From: a virus
DNA: 42,483 bases
Direction: 5' to 3' (one strand)
IMG/VR virus record: IMGVR_UViG_3300041409_000120
Location: 1-42,483 of that record
In this document: positions 1 to 42,483 of the stretch, piece after piece
How the letters are laid out: the number at the start of each line of letters is the position of its first letter
Numbering within the stretch: position 1 is the stretch's first letter
Program-made: the position numbers and the translations under genes
The notes under the pieces: generated by a model
What the model was told of the DNA's origin: nothing
Databases searched by the model: none
Seen by the model: only the letters and a program-made list of their open reading frames with translations

Positions 1-35
1 TATGCATCTGCGCCAAGGCCCTCCTTTTCATGGCA
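1..35. repeat. Left copy of 35-bp terminal direct repeat
   Basis: Bases 1-35 are identical to 42449-42483. A coupled gene pair is continuous across the join, so this is most simply the overlap of a circular assembly. A real short terminal redundancy is possible but less likely, since no other end signal is visible. Confidence 0.95.
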
Positions 36-40
36 GTTTT
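28..40 (-). promoter_or_regulatory. Copy A of start-codon motif AAAACTGCCATGA
   Basis: Read on the minus strand, this 13-mer carries the ATG of the gene that runs to 42264. Identical 13-mers occur at 20472..20484 and 42235..42247, again on the minus strand with the ATG as a start codon. See the finding on the predicted small RNA that could pair with it. Confidence 0.6.
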
Positions 41-1436: not shown

Positions 1437-1628
1437 TCATTTCAATTGCTCAACGACCAGAACCAGTGAAGCAAGGGCATTCTTGATTCTTTCCAAAGTC
1501 ACAGGCTTATTGATAACAACAACTATCCCCTCGTCCTCTTTATCATTCCTGTTTATGAATTTCTTATCAGGAATAAAGTGAAGCATATAGCGATCCGATT
1601 GTTCATTTATGAAAATGCCAGAGGTCAT
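1437..1628 (-). CDS. Hypothetical small protein
   Basis: A 63-residue ORF beginning MTSGIFINEQSDRYML. The ATG overlaps the upstream stop (ATGA). It has a beta-rich first half and a helical C-terminus (ERIKNALASLVLVVEQL). No family recognised. A 40-nt gap follows before the next gene. Confidence 0.5.
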   Translation of the reverse strand: MTSGIFINEQSDRYMLHFIPDKKFINRNDKEDEGIVVVINKPVTLERIKNALASLVLVVEQLK

Positions 1629-1879
1629 AAGATCCCCTGAGGTTGAAAAATATTCGCAGTCTGGAATGGGGTCTTATAATCATGATCAGCCCCCGTCAGG
1701 TGAATATTTTCCCTAGCCTCATAAGCATTCTTTTCATATTCATCTCTATTAATCAATACGTTCTTATCATTCATTGGTAGGTGATGGTGGGGGTGTGGGG
1801 GAGTGCCAGCTCTCATAAGGCCATGCAATATAATCAAGGTTAGCGGAAGCGTTCTCAGACGATGACCTCTTGTTATCAT
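1625..1879 (-). CDS. Hypothetical protein, start uncertain
   Basis: An 84-residue frame whose stop overlaps the next ATG. Neither the first ATG (1879) nor the internal one at 1774 has a clear ribosome site; the His/Pro-rich stretch between them looks unlike a folded domain, so the shorter 49-residue form is plausible. About 10-60 bp upstream lie a perfect 10-bp palindrome (agactagtct, about 1910) and a GATAT-N7-ATATC inverted repeat, possible operators. Confidence 0.4.
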   Translation of the reverse strand: MITRGHRLRTLPLTLIILHGLMRAGTPPHPHHHLPMNDKNVLINRDEYEKNAYEARENIHLTGADHDYKTPFQTANIFQPQGIL

Positions 1880-1942
1880 AAAAGTGATATACGAATCATA
1901 TCTACTTATAGACTAGTCTTAGAGTGCTAGTTATGACCATGT

Positions 1943-2323
1943 TTAAGCCTGTTCACCTGAATTCTGAGCTGGTTTACGATGAGTCGTGGAAGCATCCATT
2001 CCACACTTCACCTCACTCACGCTCCCCTTTACATCAGCCACACATTCAGCCAGCATTTGTTCGGCTTCTTCTTTGTTCACTTCGATGACCTTCCCGAATT
2101 GCTTATACACTTTAGCGATAGAGCCATGTTCATCGATGACGGTACGATAGAATGACATGTGGGCGCATTTCTTACAGAGGCCAAAGAAACCGTGATACGA
2201 TTTAAAGTCATGATGAAACCAACGATGACGATGACCGGCACGGGAACATTTACTGGAGCGGCGGGAATCGTATTTCCAGAGCCACGGATAAGCTTTCAAG
2301 GATGTCGAAGAATATATAGGCAT
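1943..2323 (-). CDS. His/Cys-rich hypothetical protein
   Basis: A 126-residue protein. The N-terminal half is unusually rich in His, Arg, Trp and Tyr, with a CKKC knuckle near residue 52 and several upstream histidines, compatible with a metal site. The C-terminal half is acidic and helical. It is the first gene after the promoter at 2363..2392. No family recognised. Confidence 0.5.
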   Translation of the reverse strand: MPIYSSTSLKAYPWLWKYDSRRSSKCSRAGHRHRWFHHDFKSYHGFFGLCKKCAHMSFYRTVIDEHGSIAKVYKQFGKVIEVNKEEAEQMLAECVADVKGSVSEVKCGMDASTTHRKPAQNSGEQA

Positions 2324-2331
2324 ACGTCAAG

Positions 2332-2362
2332 GCAGACCCTAGACTTGCAGTCTACGGCCTGC
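2332..2362. promoter_or_regulatory. 31-bp interrupted palindrome over the transcription start
   Basis: Arms GCAGACC/GGCCTGC (one G-T) and an inner perfect TAGAC/GTCTA pair flank a 5-base centre. It abuts the -10 box of the promoter at 2363..2392 and would span the start site. That position fits a repressor operator better than an RNA hairpin, because the transcript would begin inside the first arm. Confidence 0.5.
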
Positions 2363-2392
2363 TTTATCGCTCTTCACCCCTGTTTCTGTCAA
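2363..2392 (-). promoter_or_regulatory. Sigma70-like promoter for 1943..2323
   Basis: On the minus strand: TTGACA (2392-2387), an 18-nt spacer, then GATAAA (2368-2363). The -35 box is perfect and the -10 box moderate. It points at the gene starting at 2323. Confidence 0.5.
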
Positions 2393-2486
2393 TGGTGGTT
2401 TTGTTAGACGGAGAGATCGTACGCGCGTAGCGTTTATCGTTAGAATCGTTCAGGAAGGTGGGTATCTGACGACAGCCCCGCCCGTT

Positions 2487-2633
2487 CTATTTGCCAGTAC
2501 TTATCTCTTCTATTCCATCCTTGGTCACAACAAAGCTCTTATCTCCAACAAAATAATAAGCCTTCGAGAAATCCATCGTCACAAGGGCAAAACCTTGCTT
2601 AGGCATATGATCATCAACAATAAATCTGATCAT
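2487..2633 (-). CDS. 48-residue hypothetical protein
   Basis: The short ORF begins MIRFIVDDHMPKQGF and is mainly beta-like (ALVTMDFSKAYYFVGD). Its ATG overlaps the stop of the preceding gene (GCATGATC). About 100 nt of non-coding DNA with the promoter and palindrome follow. No family recognised. Confidence 0.5.
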   Translation of the reverse strand: MIRFIVDDHMPKQGFALVTMDFSKAYYFVGDKSFVVTKDGIEEISTGK

Positions 2634-2806
2634 GCCTTCCCCTTCCCCTCTTTGCGCTGTTCTCTCCTGTTCTTCTTAGCGATTGATTCAGAAATGATAA
2701 ATGTAGAGCCAGAGACTATACGAATACCCTCAACCATCAGTTGAACAGCAAATCGAGTCCGGTCACGCTTGCTCATTTTGCCTATTGATGTCCATCGAGG
2801 CTTCAT
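2630..2806 (-). CDS. 58-residue basic hypothetical protein
   Basis: The start MKPRWTSIGKMSKRD is chosen because AAGGGG lies 5 nt before it and its ATG overlaps the upstream stop; the open frame extends to 2869. The first half has a helix-strand pattern; the tail is Lys/Arg/Glu-rich and probably disordered. No family recognised. Confidence 0.5.
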   Translation of the reverse strand: MKPRWTSIGKMSKRDRTRFAVQLMVEGIRIVSGSTFIISESIAKKNRREQRKEGKGKA

Positions 2807-2949
2807 TTCGACCCCTTCCCTTGCTTGCGCTTCTTCTTCCCCTTCTCGTAATGCCAGTACTGCCGACAAAAGCCCGTAGAGCAGAATAGCTGGTCATACC
2901 TCGTCGGCATGAATTCCTTCTTGCACCGCTTGCATCTGGGTATCTTCAT
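2803..2949 (-). CDS. 48-residue zinc finger protein, leaderless candidate
   Basis: The protein has CKRC at residues 6-9 and C...C at 23 and 28, then a basic tail. The spacing C-x2-C-x13-C-x4-C resembles the small 'CxxC..F..CS..C' zinc folds of phage and mobile-element proteins. There is no ribosome site; the ATG sits 6 nt after a -10-like TACACT, so the mRNA may start at the ATG itself. It is the first gene of the long leftward chain. Confidence 0.6.
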   Translation of the reverse strand: MKIPRCKRCKKEFMPTRYDQLFCSTGFCRQYWHYEKGKKKRKQGKGSK

Positions 2950-2955
2950 ATAAGG

Positions 2956-2984
2956 AGTGTACTACCTAATGCGTCATAGCTCAA
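2956..2984 (-). promoter_or_regulatory. Leftward promoter of divergent pair
   Basis: On the minus strand: TTGAGC, 17 nt, TACACT, then six bases and ATG (2949). The expected start site falls on or next to the ATG. Confidence 0.5.
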
Positions 2985-3044
2985 TGGGCCTTTCGGCTAA
3001 ATCGTATTCCCATGTGAAATATACCTTGACGCAATGCGTAATAG
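2968..3044. repeat. Direct repeat AATGCGT(C/A)ATAG inside two divergent promoters
   Basis: The copies lie at 2968-2979 and 3033-3044. Each falls in the -35/-10 spacer of one of the two divergent promoters. At the second copy an 11-bp palindrome (ACGCA-A-TGCGT, 3029-3039) overlaps it. This is a likely shared operator. Confidence 0.55.
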
Positions 3045-5424: not shown

Positions 5425-6504
5425 TCAGACGGTAATATCATGCTTTACCATTCCTTCCGATTCCTTCGTTGGAGGAAATGTACGGCACAATTCCGGCACA
5501 AGGGCTGGCAGACGGGAAACGGCTCTCTTTCTAGCATGAGGCAGAAGGTGCGAATACATTTTTGTGGTGATAGGGTTAGTGTGACCCAGAAGTTCCCCCA
5601 CCTCTTCCAATGTAGCTCCATTGGAAATGAGATGGCTGGCGTAAGTGTGCCGGAAGCAATGCGCTGAGCCTTTCAGGAAGGCGTCTTTAATCAATCGTTG
5701 GAAATATTGAGCGTATGTACTGTCCGGGACCAGATCCGGCCCTAAAACGAATCCTTGGGGCCTCCTGATCGATTGTAGATGGGTTTGCAAGTCTTCTGGC
5801 ATGTCAATGCGCCGGTCATGAGGCTTTTGAGCGGTCCACCCCTTGGGTTTCCAGAAAGGTTTGGGGTGAATGTAGAGCGTGCCATCATCAAAAGCAATAT
5901 CCTGCCATTCCAGATGCCGTACTTCGCCGCTTCTGAGACCAGCCCGGGCCATAAGGAGTAAGGCCGTTTGCCATTTTCCCTTTGTCATGCTTATAAGCTT
6001 CTGAAGCTCTTCCATCATATAGTAAATGAGTCTGCCTGCTGAAACATGCCCCTTTACCATCCGCCATGGCTGAACCATCGTATATCGCCATGCTTCGGCG
6101 GTCTTCATCGCTACCTTGATTTGCATGACGTAAGAGCCTATGGCCGCATCCGTATATTCTTTCTTCTTCCATTTGAGCTTGGCATCTTCCAGAAGTTCAG
6201 GCGTAATCTGCTGAATGTGCTTGATGTAAAACACCTCGTCCAATCTTCGGAAGGCCAAGTCCGTGTGAGCATAGGTGTTTGGCCGCTTCTGGTCTTTGCG
6301 GATCTTCAGATACAGCGTCTTAAACACCTTGTAATCCGTGGACTGAGGCACAAGGCCATGCTTTCGGAACCGGCTGACAGACGCTAGTTCGTCCTGCATC
6401 ATCTGAGCTTCCCGCTTATTGGGTGAGAGAGGTTTCCTGACACGTTCCCCGTTCAACCAATAATTGGAATACCAAACTCGATTGCGAAGATAGATCTGAC
6501 CCAT
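5425..6504 (-). CDS. int: Tyrosine recombinase (integrase)
   Basis: A 359-residue protein. It has an N-terminal arm-type DNA-binding segment (about 1-50), a SAM-like core-binding domain (about 55-150) and a catalytic domain with R191, H282-x2-R285, H308 and nucleophile Y317. All expected catalytic residues except a confidently placed Lys are visible. It would join the phage and host attachment sites. The start overlaps the stop of the outer-membrane-type gene (TGATG), so the two are coupled. The gene's 3' end contains a second GGCACAA pair. Confidence 0.95.
   Translation of the reverse strand: MGQIYLRNRVWYSNYWLNGERVRKPLSPNKREAQMMQDELASVSRFRKHGLVPQSTDYKVFKTLYLKIRKDQKRPNTYAHTDLAFRRLDEVFYIKHIQQITPELLEDAKLKWKKKEYTDAAIGSYVMQIKVAMKTAEAWRYTMVQPWRMVKGHVSAGRLIYYMMEELQKLISMTKGKWQTALLLMARAGLRSGEVRHLEWQDIAFDDGTLYIHPKPFWKPKGWTAQKPHDRRIDMPEDLQTHLQSIRRPQGFVLGPDLVPDSTYAQYFQRLIKDAFLKGSAHCFRHTYASHLISNGATLEEVGELLGHTNPITTKMYSHLLPHARKRAVSRLPALVPELCRTFPPTKESEGMVKHDITV
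5484..5501 (+). repeat. GGCACAA pair 2 (candidate integrase arm site)
   Basis: GGCACAA at 5484-5490 and 5495-5501, 11 bp apart, inside the 3' coding part of the integrase. Confidence 0.45.
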
Positions 6505-7324: not shown

Positions 7325-7353
7325 TTGACATGTGTATAGTATTACTGTACACT
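7325..7353 (+). promoter_or_regulatory. Main rightward (early) promoter
   Basis: Perfect TTGACA (7325-7330), 17-nt spacer, TACACT (7348-7353). The start is expected near 7360, giving a leader of about 200 nt before the XRE gene. Confidence 0.75.
7332..7352. promoter_or_regulatory. Operator-like palindrome in the early promoter
   Basis: A 21-bp dyad with arms GTGTA-n-AGTA / TACT-n-TACAC; 18 of 21 positions are symmetric. It fills the -35/-10 spacer and overlaps the -10 box, a classic repressor position. Confidence 0.65.
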
Positions 7354-7413
7354 TACTCATCACCGTCGAGAAGTAAGCAAACGAACAGTATCTAAAACTT
7401 GGGAGAAACGCAA

Positions 7414-7455
7414 ATGAAAAACACACAAGGACAATATGAAGACCTCAAAATCTGA
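7414..7455 (+). CDS. 13-residue leader peptide
   Basis: ATG behind GGGAGA encodes MKNTQGQYEDLKI and stops 2 nt before the first terminator stem. The placement is that of an attenuator leader peptide. It has no run of one amino acid, so ordinary amino-acid attenuation is not indicated. Confidence 0.4.
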   Translation: MKNTQGQYEDLKI

Positions 7456-7457
7456 AG

Positions 7458-7480
7458 CCAGCCTAACGGTTGGTTTTTTC
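7458..7480 (+). terminator. Intrinsic terminator 1 of the early leader
   Basis: Stem CCAGCC/GGTTGG (one G-U) with a TAAC loop, then TTTTTT. It would end a transcript of about 120 nt from the promoter at 7325. Confidence 0.65.
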
Positions 7481-7485
7481 GTTTT

Positions 7486-7551
7486 GCCCCTTGCTGACCT
7501 TGTGTGTGCCGCTCCCAAGCGGAAAACATCTTCGGCAGGGGCATTTTTTTT
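7486..7551 (+). terminator. Intrinsic terminator 2 of the early leader
   Basis: An outer stem GCCCC-T-GC / GC-A-GGGGC encloses a CCGCT/AGCGG hairpin and is followed by ATTTTTTTT. This is a strong terminator placed 17 nt before the XRE gene. Confidence 0.75.
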
Positions 7552-7568
7552 ATGCCAAAGGTTATCCG

Positions 7569-7940
7569 ATGAAGCCTAAACAAGATAGCCCCCAAAATCC
7601 CGAACTGCCGGGTATTAAGGTTTCGAAACAGACCCCTTTTTTTGACCCTCTTATCGTGAATCAACGAAACCGCACGTATAAGGGGGGTCGGGTTTTAAGG
7701 TGTGCTGTTCGATTCCGCTATTGGCGAGAAACCGAGGGACTCAGCGTGGGACGCATAGCCGCGCGACTGGAAGAGCGCACTCGTGAATACGGTATGGATG
7801 CCCAATATGTCATGACGCGACTTTATGAGTTGGAGCAGGGCCGTTTTAAGCCCCCAATGTGGCTCATAGGTCTCTTAATGGAAGTTTATCAGATCAAATT
7901 TCCATGGTGGGAATTTCTCGATACAGGGAAAACCCAATGA
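7569..7940 (+). CDS. XRE/Cro-like DNA-binding protein
   Basis: A 123-residue protein beginning MKPKQDSPQNPELPG; the frame extends upstream through terminator 2, so the ATG at 7569 with AAAGG is preferred. Residues about 43-112 (LRCAVRFRYWRETEGLSV, later YELEQGRF) follow the helix pattern of lambda-repressor-type domains, with 'E.G.....W' between helices. No protease or oligomerisation domain. First gene behind the early promoter, so a Cro-like or early regulator; which operator it binds is unknown. Confidence 0.65.
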   Translation: MKPKQDSPQNPELPGIKVSKQTPFFDPLIVNQRNRTYKGGRVLRCAVRFRYWRETEGLSVGRIAARLEERTREYGMDAQYVMTRLYELEQGRFKPPMWLIGLLMEVYQIKFPWWEFLDTGKTQ

Positions 7941-11706: not shown

Positions 11707-11979
11707 ATGAAAAACAAAGCGGTATTAGTGACGACGGAGTTTAGAGGAGTTTTCTTTGGATACGTAAAAGACGAAAAGCATTTGCCGGATGAGATTACGC
11801 TGACCAATGTGAAGAACTGTATCTATTGGTCTTCTGACTGTGGGGGATTTCTTGGATTGGCTTCAAGCGGCCCGACCAGTGGATGCAAAATCGGAACACA
11901 GGTTCCGGAATTGCGTCTGTTCAAGATCACCAGCGTCACGCCAGTTTCTGATGAGGCGGCGAAGAAATGGAACTCCTAA
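11707..11979 (+). CDS. Conserved phage protein (DUF6948-like)
   Basis: A 90-residue beta-rich protein starting behind AAAGGAG. The patterns 'VLVTTEFRGVFFGY', 'NCIYWSSDCGGFLGLA' and 'GP..G.KIG' match my recollection of the DUF6948 type found in phage early regions; function unknown. It overlaps the repeat-protein gene by 13 nt. Confidence 0.65.
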   Translation: MKNKAVLVTTEFRGVFFGYVKDEKHLPDEITLTNVKNCIYWSSDCGGFLGLASSGPTSGCKIGTQVPELRLFKITSVTPVSDEAAKKWNS

Positions 11980-12437
11980 AAGTAACAAAGGACATCGCCA
12001 TCAGGGCCATCCTCTTTGGGGCTTGTTCAATTCCGAAAGTGGGCCAATTGGTTAGCGAGTATTCAACCTCAAGCTTAATCTGGGCCGAAAAGATGTTTTC
12101 ACTCAAAGAGCTTAAAGCCTTTGGACGTCCGTTGTGGACGTTGTCCGGTTCCGGTTACGGTTCCGGTTACGGTTACGGTTACGGTTCCGGTTACGGTTCC
12201 GGTTACGGTTACGGTTACGGTTCCGGTGACGGTTACGGTTACGGTTCCGGTTACGGTTCCGGTGACGGTTACGGTTCCGGTGACGGTTACGGTTACGGTT
12301 CCGGTTCCGGTGACGGTTACGGTTACGGTTCCGGTTACGGTTCCGGTTCCGGTTCCGGTTACGGTTACGGTTCCGGTTACGGTGACGGTTACGGTTCCGG
12401 TAAAGACATCGGAGCAAGAATAATCGCTATCGGTTAA
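11967..12437 (+). CDS. Gly-Tyr/Ser/Asp repeat protein
   Basis: A 156-residue protein. Residues 1-60 form a folded-looking helical head; residues 61-144 are 42 dipeptides G-Y, G-S or G-D with no other residue, then a short tail KDIGARIIAIG. Such a tract is intrinsically disordered and, with evenly spaced Tyr, could drive self-association like aromatic low-complexity domains. That is inference. Start overlaps the upstream gene; no ribosome site stronger than AGAAATG. Confidence 0.7.
   Translation: MELLKVTKDIAIRAILFGACSIPKVGQLVSEYSTSSLIWAEKMFSLKELKAFGRPLWTLSGSGYGSGYGYGYGSGYGSGYGYGYGSGDGYGYGSGYGSGDGYGSGDGYGYGSGSGDGYGYGSGYGSGSGSGYGYGSGYGDGYGSGKDIGARIIAIG
12147..12398 (+). repeat. Array of 42 hexanucleotide units
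   Basis: Units are GGTTAC, GGTTCC or GGTGAC in irregular order; no other codons occur. Every Gly is GGT, every Tyr TAC, every Ser TCC and every Asp GAC. Slippage-prone, so length may vary between isolates or in assembly. Confidence 0.95.
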
Positions 12438-14041: not shown

Positions 14042-14824
14042 ATGACAAAGATCGAGATTAAAAGCCGTTGGAGTGGATCGGTGTTATTCAGTCTGGAAAC
14101 GGAGTCGTTGAAGTTGTGCGTAGAGGCGGCCGTAGAACAAGGCGCGAACCTCAAAGGCGCGTACCTCAAAGGCGCGTACCTCGAAGGCGCGGACCTCAAA
14201 GGCGCGAACCTCGAAGGCGCGTACCTCAAAGGCGCGAACCTCGAAGGCGCGTACCTCAAAGGCGCGTACCTCAAAGGCGCGAACCTCGAAGGCGCGTACC
14301 TCGAAGGCGCGGACCTCAAAGGCGCGAACCTCGAAGGCGCGTACCTCAAAGGCGCGGACCTCAAAGGCGCGTACCTCGAAGGCGCGTACCTCGAAGGCGC
14401 GTACCTCAAAGGCGCGAACCTCAAAGGCGCGAACCTCGAAGGCGCGGACCTCAAAGGCGCGAACCTCGAAGGCGCGAACCTCCAGCCTATCCGCGACGAC
14501 CTATGGGCGGTCTTATCATCAGCTCCCCATGAAGTCGAAGGGCTTCGGCAAGCCGTTATTGACGGAAAGATAGATGGTTCAACCTACACTGGAATCTGCG
14601 CCTGTCTTGTCGGGACTATTGCGAAAGTGGCAAAGAAATCACACTTGGATCTGCCCACACTCAAGCCAAATTCACGACGACCCGCTGAAATATGGTTTCT
14701 GATGATCAAAGAGGGCGATAAGCCGAAAACCAACAACGCTTCAAAATTGGCTCTGCAATGGATTGACGAATGGCTTGAGAACATCACGGCTGCCTTCGGA
14801 GAAAAGCCATGCGCGAAGAAGTAA
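14042..14824 (+). CDS. Pentapeptide repeat protein
   Basis: A 260-residue protein with AGGAGG 7 nt upstream. Residues 34-148 are 23 pentapeptides G-A-(Y/N/D)-L-(K/E/Q), the A(D/N)LxX right-handed quadrilateral helix that can mimic DNA. Residues about 150-260 (IRDDLWAVLSSAPHEVEGL, 'DGSTYTGICACLVGTIA', 'RPAEIWFLMI.EGD') form a C-terminal domain seen in phage pentapeptide proteins. Some relatives in other systems bind gyrase; a role here is not shown. Confidence 0.85.
   Translation: MTKIEIKSRWSGSVLFSLETESLKLCVEAAVEQGANLKGAYLKGAYLEGADLKGANLEGAYLKGANLEGAYLKGAYLKGANLEGAYLEGADLKGANLEGAYLKGADLKGAYLEGAYLEGAYLKGANLKGANLEGADLKGANLEGANLQPIRDDLWAVLSSAPHEVEGLRQAVIDGKIDGSTYTGICACLVGTIAKVAKKSHLDLPTLKPNSRRPAEIWFLMIKEGDKPKTNNASKLALQWIDEWLENITAAFGEKPCAKK
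14141..14485 (+). repeat. 23 tandem 15-bp units
   Basis: The consensus unit is GGCGCGnACCTCnAA. Only the two n positions vary (T/A/G and A/G) except for a final CAG; all synonymous positions are invariant. Confidence 0.95.
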
Positions 14825-19285: not shown

Positions 19286-19867
19286 ATGCCTAAAAAAGAG
19301 AAGCCATGCCCTTGTTTGGAGAACGTATACGCTCATTTTGTCTGCGGTGGTACTGAAACGCAGAAATGTGGGTGCGACTGTCACGCGAAGAAGGGGTGCG
19401 AGCATGACGGCTATGTGCGTGGAAAATGTCCGTGCTACAAGCCAACTGCGCCAGCGGAAATGCGATGTGGACACCACGGCTATGAAAAGCGATGCACGGA
19501 GTGCAGCGAGGTTGAAATCAGGACGCCATGGATGGAATTTGGTAATGGCAAGCCAGCCAACCCTCATAGAACATGCGGAAGATTGGATCATAAGATGGGA
19601 TGCGATTGTGATTTGAAGAAGCCAGCCGAACAGGTGGCTACCGTTAGGTGCGTAGCCGGACATGATCTAGATCCCAATGAAGTCCACCCCTATTGCAAGC
19701 CCCCGCTCTCGGGGGAGGTGGAAACCAAGATTATCAAGATGGCAGACGAGGTGTCTCGTCATGCTCGAATGTTGGACATGGGAGCGAGTGCCTATTTTGA
19801 GCTTATTTGCCAAAGAGGACGCGAACTCTGCGCCCTCGTGCGCGATGAGATGAGGGGGCGGGAGTGA
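19286..19867 (+). CDS. Large Cys/His-rich multi-zinc protein
   Basis: A 193-residue protein; the first about 140 residues hold some twenty cysteines and many histidines in repeated modules (PCPC, KCGCDCH, KCPCYK, RCTEC, KMGCDC, 'VRCVAGHDL'). The C-terminal about 45 residues form helices. The CGCDCH module resembles the 32-residue protein at 4555..4653. It lies near the end of the early operon, a usual place for a late activator or antiterminator, some of which carry zinc; this is only positional. Confidence 0.6.
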   Translation: MPKKEKPCPCLENVYAHFVCGGTETQKCGCDCHAKKGCEHDGYVRGKCPCYKPTAPAEMRCGHHGYEKRCTECSEVEIRTPWMEFGNGKPANPHRTCGRLDHKMGCDCDLKKPAEQVATVRCVAGHDLDPNEVHPYCKPPLSGEVETKIIKMADEVSRHARMLDMGASAYFELICQRGRELCALVRDEMRGRE

Positions 19868-20094
19868 ACAGTATTCGAGTTGAAGACGTTAAAAAAGGCC
19901 AAGTTATATGGGAATGCGAAAGCGGGATTAACATGAAAGTAACAGCTCTCGAAAACTCTGTAAGAAATGGAGATTTTGTCTCATTCATGGCTATAGGAGA
20001 AACAGGCGGCCCATTTGAAATTGGGTATGACTGCGTGATAGGAAAAGCCTACCGCCCAAAGCTTTACGACGGCCCTGTTTATATGACGCGATGA
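19864..20094 (+). CDS. Hypothetical beta-rich protein
   Basis: A 76-residue protein; the GTG start overlaps the upstream stop (GTGA) behind GGGG. 'DVKKGQVIWECESGINMKVTALE' reads like a small beta-barrel. Last gene of the rightward operon. No family recognised. Confidence 0.55.
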   Translation: MNSIRVEDVKKGQVIWECESGINMKVTALENSVRNGDFVSFMAIGETGGPFEIGYDCVIGKAYRPKLYDGPVYMTR

Positions 20095-20119
20095 CCCCCC
20101 CCGCAAGCCGTTCTTCGGG

Positions 20120-20223
20120 AAATAGAAAGGGGGCGCAGTATTCCCCCGGTAACTGCCAAGTTAACCCGAAAGAGACCGTCGCCCCCATTGCTCGTACGCT
20201 TGGCAGTTTCGATTCCGTAAGAA
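20120..20223 (-). ncRNA. Predicted structured small RNA
   Basis: A promoter (20230..20258) would start this RNA near 20223. It contains AACTGCCAAG (20208-20199), GGGGGCG (20186-20180), CTTGGCAGTT (20160-20151) and CGCCCCC (20135-20129): two perfect helices in interleaved order, that is, a pseudoknot. Alternatively, GGGGG (20147-20143) pairs with CCCCC (20133-20129), followed by TTTCTATTT, a terminator-like end near 20120. No ORF with a ribosome site lies inside. Length is about 100 nt. Pairing with the AACTGCCATG motif at three gene starts is possible. Confidence 0.5.
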
Positions 20224-20229
20224 CAATCC

Positions 20230-20258
20230 CTTATATAAAGGTTAGGGGCGGCAGTCAA
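20230..20258 (-). promoter_or_regulatory. Sigma70-type promoter of the small RNA
   Basis: On the minus strand: TTGACT (20258-20253), exactly 17 nt, TATAAG (20235-20230). It lies after the last late gene and points to the intergenic region, away from any minus-strand gene, so an RNA product is the natural reading. Confidence 0.65.
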
Positions 20259-20259
20259 C

Positions 20260-20475
20260 TTATCTTAGACTTTTTGCATCTATCCTGTCCGCTAATCTTT
20301 CCACAACAGCAGTTAATTTCGCAATAGCGTCTGTATTCCGATTCAGACTCACATAACAGAGATAGGTCATAATCAGAAAAGCCAGAATTGGGAAGCCAAC
20401 ACGATTAATGGCCGTGAGCGTCCATTTCAGTTTCAGCGGGATGTCCCCATTAAATTCATTCTCGTCTCGGTTCAT
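20260..20475 (-). CDS. Small membrane protein of the lysis region
   Basis: A 71-residue protein: polar N-terminus, one span (about 24-45, INRVGFPILAFLIMTYLCYV) and a charged helical tail (AIAKLTAVVERLADRI). Its topology resembles small holin, anti-holin or spanin-like proteins. It starts at copy B of the 13-bp start-codon motif with AAAGGA upstream. Last gene of the late operon. Confidence 0.65.
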   Translation of the reverse strand: MNRDENEFNGDIPLKLKWTLTAINRVGFPILAFLIMTYLCYVSLNRNTDAIAKLTAVVERLADRIDAKSLR

Positions 20476-20484
20476 GGCAGTTTT
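20472..20484 (-). promoter_or_regulatory. Copy B of start-codon motif AAAACTGCCATGA
   Basis: Identical to 28..40 and 42235..42247; contains the ATG of the gene at 20260..20475. Confidence 0.6.
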
Positions 20485-42234: not shown

Positions 42235-42247
42235 TCATGGCAGTTTT
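42235..42247 (-). promoter_or_regulatory. Copy C of start-codon motif AAAACTGCCATGA
   Basis: Identical to 28..40 and 20472..20484. Its ATG (42238) begins a frame that overlaps the start of 41836..42210 in another frame, so it could act as a leader ORF. Confidence 0.6.
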
Positions 42248-42263: not shown

Positions 42264-42479
42264 TTAGTGTTCTTTCATCCATGGCAAATACCATTTTGTT
42301 TTATTAGGAATAAAAGTGTAAATATTCAAATAAGGACGCCCTTTGGGATTCCAATTTTTTCTGATATACCCAAGGGCTTTCTTTCTAGTTACAAAAGCTC
42401 CAATCACCTTAACACCATTGCAGAAACAGGAAGATGTTTCAACAATGATATGCATCTGCGCCAAGGCCCTCCTTTTCAT
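42264..42479 (-). CDS. Small basic protein across the circular join
   Basis: A 71-residue protein. Start at the ATG that overlaps the stop of the gene at 28..360 on the circle; a second ATG (42455) follows AAGGAGG at 12 nt. Sequence 'VKVIGAFVTRKKALGYIRKNWNPKG' is basic alpha/beta. Flanked on both sides by copies of the 13-bp motif. No family recognised. Confidence 0.6.
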   Translation of the reverse strand: MKRRALAQMHIIVETSSCFCNGVKVIGAFVTRKKALGYIRKNWNPKGRPYLNIYTFIPNKTKWYLPWMKEH

Positions 42480-42483
42480 GGCA
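42449..42483. repeat. Right copy of 35-bp terminal direct repeat
   Basis: Identical to bases 1-35; see the left copy. Confidence 0.95.

Follow-up and report, generated by a model that had tools for sequence, protein, structure and literature searches.

A candidate attenuator-like RNA with crossing helices where early and late genes converge in an uncultivated temperate phage

What, if anything, is encoded in the short spacer at which the early and late genes of this phage converge? The window (the whole 42,483-nt stretch of DNA analysed) consists of 42,448 bp and a 35-bp overlap, with bases 1-35 identical to bases 42449-42483; because of this terminal identity, it closes to a complete circular genome. 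The window thus represents a complete circular temperate phage that is uncultivated. A 165-nt spacer, which houses the RNA unit described here, separates the convergent early (plus) and late (minus) blocks. The setting is as follows:

5425-6504, minus strand: integrase
up to 20094, plus strand: early block, with exonuclease, replication initiation protein and RusA
down to 20260, minus strand: late block, from terminase and portal to endolysin and the holin-like gene
19864-20094, plus strand: last early gene, 76 aa, of no family, convergent with the RNA unit
20260-20475, minus strand: holin-like gene (phrog_4898, E 1.6e-5), last in the late operon and immediately ahead of the unit

A search for relatives of the last early gene gave none, no lysogens were found in GTDB genomes using the terminase or tail protein, no named phage had DNA similarity to the element, and an exact DNA search of IMG/VR did not find it. 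Repeats occur elsewhere in the genome: the hexamer CGGTTA is repeated ∼43 times in tandem at 12146-12401 inside ORF 11967-12437, and 15-bp tandem repeats at 14139-14482 encode a pentapeptide-repeat protein (PF00805, E 1.1e-44). In another record, L026 (IMGVR_UViG_3300025936_000051, 1440-3040), the words CCTAGAAGCTA and TGTTGGCA are repeated in intergenic regions between early genes and are possibly repeated operators or promoters.

The spacer contains the following elements, listed in the order of leftward transcription:

20253-20258, minus strand: -35 hexamer TTGACT, immediately downstream of the holin-like stop codon
20230-20235, minus strand: -10 hexamer TATAAG, spacer of 17, with a probable transcript start near 20223
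20199-20208, minus strand: 5' arm of helix P1, AACTGCCAAG, +16 to +25 of the putative RNA
20180-20186, minus strand: 5' arm of helix P2, GGGGGCG, within the P1 loop
20151-20160, minus strand: 3' arm of P1, CTTGGCAGTT, forming a perfect 10-bp helix with AACTGCCAAG
20143-20147, minus strand: 5' arm GGGGG of a small alternative terminator hairpin that can form alongside P1
20129-20135, minus strand: 3' arm of P2, CGCCCCC, forming a perfect 7-bp helix; its CCCCC is shared with the small hairpin
20129-20133, minus strand: 3' arm CCCCC of the small hairpin
20120-20128, minus strand: U-tract TTTCTATTT, the probable RNA 3' end

The leftward promoter TTGACT-N17-TATAAG reported in the initial annotation is present at 20258-20230, where it matches the consensus at 10 of 12 positions with optimal spacing. 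The accompanying claim that no minus-strand gene lies here also holds, in that the minus-strand ORFs crossing the spacer (20079-20258 and 19991-20188) have low codon scores and no support as genes, and the overlapping spacer ORF tested matches no family. The plus-strand ORF 20091-20327, which overlaps the early stop codon as ATGA, was rejected as a gene based on its negative codon score and the lack of a Pfam match. Judged by its sequence, the unit appears to have the properties of a noncoding sRNA, i.e., its own promoter, a 3' intrinsic terminator and no encoded protein. In a search of Rfam 15, no family reached its gathering score.

Is this more than an ordinary intrinsic terminator that closes the late operon, with a promoter match and a P1 that are coincidental and no separate RNA? 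A terminator is expected at the end of a late operon, the number of promoter-like sites with at least 10 of 12 matches in the window is that expected by chance (9 versus 10 ± 3 in shuffles), and the overall fold stability of the unit is unremarkable compared to shuffles (z −0.57). Three observations argue against this explanation. First, same-strand pairs of a promoter followed by a terminator are enriched in the window (4 versus a mean of 0.12 in shuffles). Second, the crossing helix pair arises in 0.025% of spacer shuffles. Third, four relatives carry the same architecture. Altogether, we regard the ordinary terminator as a rather unlikely explanation. The other three promoter-terminator pairs start at the early promoter (7325, plus), the late promoter (41549, minus) and 33698 (plus); the last lies within structural genes and is probably accidental. 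At 7325-7545 (plus), the early promoter TTGACA-N17-TACACT is followed by the short ORF MKNTQGQYEDLKI and then by a terminator hairpin with TTTTTTCGTTTT, which is enclosed by ACACACAAGG/CCTTGTGTGT; by sequence, this is a possible leader-peptide attenuator.

Two perfect helices in interleaved order had been proposed, together with a GGGGG/CCCCC hairpin followed by TTTCTATTT, and all of these were found: P1 of 10 bp, P2 of 7 bp, and the hairpin and U-tract at 20147-20120. The 3' arm of P2 runs straight into the U-tract. Two crossing helix pairs are present in the whole window versus 0.3 expected, and the score for a crossing helix next to P1 reaches its window maximum (1210 tiles) at the spacer unit. 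For the full-length RNA, almost equal energies are predicted for the P1 fold (−33.7 kcal/mol) and the P2 fold (−35.0 kcal/mol); the predicted minimum-energy fold is nested and contains P2, and 1.3 kcal/mol separates it from the weaker fold with P1 and the small hairpin. Until the 3' arm of P2 emerges, P1 dominates in the window RNA with a predicted probability of 0.96-0.98; a comparison of all five units described below, including that of the window, gave 0.98-1.0. Modeling of the folding order predicts that P1 folds before P2 during transcription. Linkers of 12, 19 and 15 nt would leave steric room for a pseudoknot containing P1 and P2 together. Because both window folds (P1 with the small hairpin, or P2) place a G/C stem against the U-tract, the fold switch need not change termination in the window copy. 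In the folding model, the small hairpin may permit termination with P1 formed, and gating may be lost in this copy.

The architecture of the proposed ∼100-nt RNA unit, comprising promoter, terminator and interleaved helices, recurs by sequence in four other phages. Relatives were IMG/VR records linked to the window by capsid, tail, endolysin or holin proteins in protein searches. The descriptor called for a promoter with at least 9 of 12 matches, P1 at the RNA 5' end, an interleaved P2 joined to a U-tract and a score of at least 17; the window unit scores 17 and satisfies it. A promoter-first scan covered 862 kb in 35 IMG/VR records including the window, MW202554 and positions 30-48.5 kb of lambda. 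Five units in five phages scored at least 17 versus 0.05 expected from shuffles, a ratio to be read in the light of a descriptor refined on examples that include the window unit, of compared phages that are mutually related and of shuffles as an imperfect null. The five units are as follows:

window, from 20258, minus strand: followed by no gene in the same direction
G001 (L067), 7498-7640, plus strand: replication genes come next
G002 (L070), 11762-11600, minus strand: replication genes come next; two further terminator-like hairpins in tandem follow the unit, then a DnaD-like gene
G011 (L073), 1937-2030, plus strand: no clear gene for >300 bases downstream
G032 (L098), 769-680, minus strand: small gene with a ribosome-binding site downstream

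These units are alike in size (P1 of 9-11 bp starting from +1 to +16, P2 of 7-10 bp, U-tract at +79 to +96), and their sequences are unrelated to each other. In a scan of 523 kb that dispensed with the promoter (P1, crossing P2 and U-tract), six sites were found versus 1.2 in shuffles, and four of the six have a promoter at the right distance versus 0.025 expected. The parts of the unit and their recurrence relative to shuffles are observed in the sequence itself. The descriptor was absent from lambda 30-48.5 kb, HK022 and MW202554. Weaker scan matches with scores of 14-16 (G018, G023, G024 and G025) were A/T-rich or repeat-like and were left out of the count. Because the early/late junctions of the nearest relatives lack the element (a 54-nt spacer in G004, and a 1-nt gap in both G008 and G028/L043), the position of the unit is not conserved. 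A lead, and no more than that, comes from G002: the unit promoter lies 9 nt beyond the end of a small ORF that carries an RIGFP motif and has weak similarity to the holin-like gene of the window (E 0.003 in a single comparison).

Because four related phages carry units of like build and unrelated sequence, the spacer element is probably a real regulatory RNA. The proposed targeting of late genes is not supported as its function. The initial annotation had suggested that the RNA pairs with late-gene starts and so times late or lysis genes. The target motif itself is confirmed, with exactly three minus-strand occurrences of AACTGCCATG, each ending in ATG:

29-38, minus strand: the start at 42479, repeated in the 35-bp overlap
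20473-20482, minus strand: start of the holin-like gene at 20475
42236-42245, minus strand: start at 42238

The near variant AACTGCCAATG forms the start of a fourth small gene at ∼41685. A trans-acting sRNA that uses CUUGGCAGUU to pair with AACUGCCAUG, repressing translation of late or lysis genes, would account for a motif on start codons at these places and for its variant. However, interaction prediction at the three sites, with internal structure included, gave binding equalled or beaten by 18%, 47% and 90% of the 811 minus-strand ATGs, i.e., no better than background. Moreover, the segment proposed to pair forms the 3' arm of P1, which already has a perfect 10-mer as its partner, and the only lysis gene among the three starts is that at 20475, the other two lying upstream of terminase genes. 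We consider such a trans-acting sRNA very improbable, and the proposed timing control is not supported by these results. The AACTGCCATG motif is a real start-codon context of the window phage, and it is the inference of pairing that fails. The context AACTGCC(A)ATG is common to four late-strand genes (42479, 42238, 41685 and 20475), above chance. No enrichment was found for GTATTACTGTAC, a candidate common operator.

Do helices of the P1 type follow other promoters in this phage group? In the window and five relatives, the first late gene is preceded by a sigma-70-like promoter and then a leader with strong folding (z −3.2 to −4.6):

window, 41549-41385, minus strand: late leader
L005, from 2476: late leader
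L012, from 3901: late leader
L008, ∼2278: late leader
L007, ∼3595: late leader
L004, 3100: late leader

A MAFFT alignment of these six leaders was too poor for column-wise covariation, and P1 was instead tested against a positional background. All six have a perfect P1 of 8-11 bp; its start falls in the first 27 nt, its span is 50-78 nt and its sequence is wholly different in each phage. The random-position background is 1.95% at ≥8 bp and 0.25% at ≥10 bp. P1 at the window spacer promoter (10 bp, +16, span 58) compares with helices of only 3-6 bp at the seven other promoter-like sites of the window. Read from sequence, this points to a P1 helix that is kept after promoters without conserved sequence. 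P1 in the late leaders encloses, or shares its 5' arm with, a terminator-like hairpin and U-tract, and a second hairpin comes next; a U-rich tract lies inside the leader in five of the six phages. The late leader resembles a gate for the late genes made of a promoter and a terminator. In all six phages, the first late gene seems to start with TTG or GTG inside the U-tract after the second leader hairpin (GTTTTG context), and this start (∼41385, minus, in the window) has no clear Shine-Dalgarno sequence.

Known systems offer partial parallels. In riboswitch and attenuator leaders with pseudoknotted expression platforms, an early 5' helix crosses the terminator helix. The units share this early-forming, crossing 5' helix; however, they have neither a conserved core or loop sequence nor an Rfam match. 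In lambda pR'-tR' (6S RNA), an intrinsic terminator within ∼100 nt of the promoter gives rise to a short constitutive RNA. The window unit has the same arrangement of a promoter and an intrinsic terminator within ∼100 nt but differs in having the crossing P1/P2 and no late genes downstream. The lambda leader is subject to Q-dependent antitermination, and Q-dependent late control is also described in PMC7171158; no Q-like protein was recognised among the late-early genes tested in the window. The nearest mechanistic parallel is the HK022 put RNA (putL and putR), a ∼70-nt structured, cis-acting RNA near promoters that alters termination (PMC9378689). As the unit would, put acts on termination; however, it consists of two consecutive stem-loops and putL and putR share sequence, whereas the unit helices are interleaved, with a stem joined to the U-tract and copies without shared sequence. 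An antiterminator RNA of the put type was rejected on these grounds.

Could the RNA instead act in cis as an antisense RNA on the early operon? Lambda OOP, a short antisense RNA with its own promoter that acts through RNase III (PMC12197685), provides the precedent for an RNA with complementarity to the untranslated 3' end of the early mRNA, whose decay it would promote late in infection. Like OOP, the unit would use a promoter and a terminator of its own to make a short RNA transcribed against a convergent gene block, and no strong plus-strand terminator of the early operon was found ahead of it, such that read-through early mRNA would be perfectly complementary. In contrast to OOP, which overlaps the coding region of its target, the unit RNA would stop short of the early coding region (20094), and its overlap with the early mRNA would be confined to what may be the 3' untranslated end. 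Nor do the other four units face a gene end as this one does, and antisense action would leave the recurrence unexplained. While antisense action on the early mRNA is compatible with the unit, we find it improbable as the explanation.

The reading we prefer, to which we assign a probability of about one in two, is an attenuator-like, promoter-proximal terminator made of crossing helices that yields a ∼100-nt noncoding RNA. In this model, a sigma-70-type promoter directly after the holin-like gene would transcribe the RNA leftward, and its 5' segment would pair over 10 bp with a segment ∼40 nt further on to form P1, enclosing the 5' arm of P2. P1 would form first; subsequently, P2 or the small GGGGG/CCCCC hairpin would form before the U-tract, with termination near 20120. 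To halt the polymerase, P2 would have to thread through P1 or displace it, as in an attenuator: P1 would delay or block P2, and whatever stabilises P1, if anything does (a phage protein or a ligand, perhaps), would permit read-through. From this architecture, we infer transcription, termination and gating. In relatives, the unit mostly lies ahead of genes. In the window, it would mainly produce a stand-alone short RNA because no gene in the same direction lies downstream, and it should also close the late operon and reduce the antisense transcription that enters the early operon.

It is possible, if doubtful, that these units represent a new class of phage regulatory RNA in which a promoter-proximal terminator stem is threaded through a 5'-end helix and pairing is selected without conserved sequence, found at operon starts in this phage group and also as a stand-alone RNA at the end of the late operon of the window. 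If real, such a unit would be a transcription gate without a sequence signature, and thus missed by family searches such as Rfam. It would also provide a simple descriptor (promoter, 5' helix and crossing terminator stem) applicable to any phage collection, and a way to test how operons are controlled in this uncultivated group of temperate phages.
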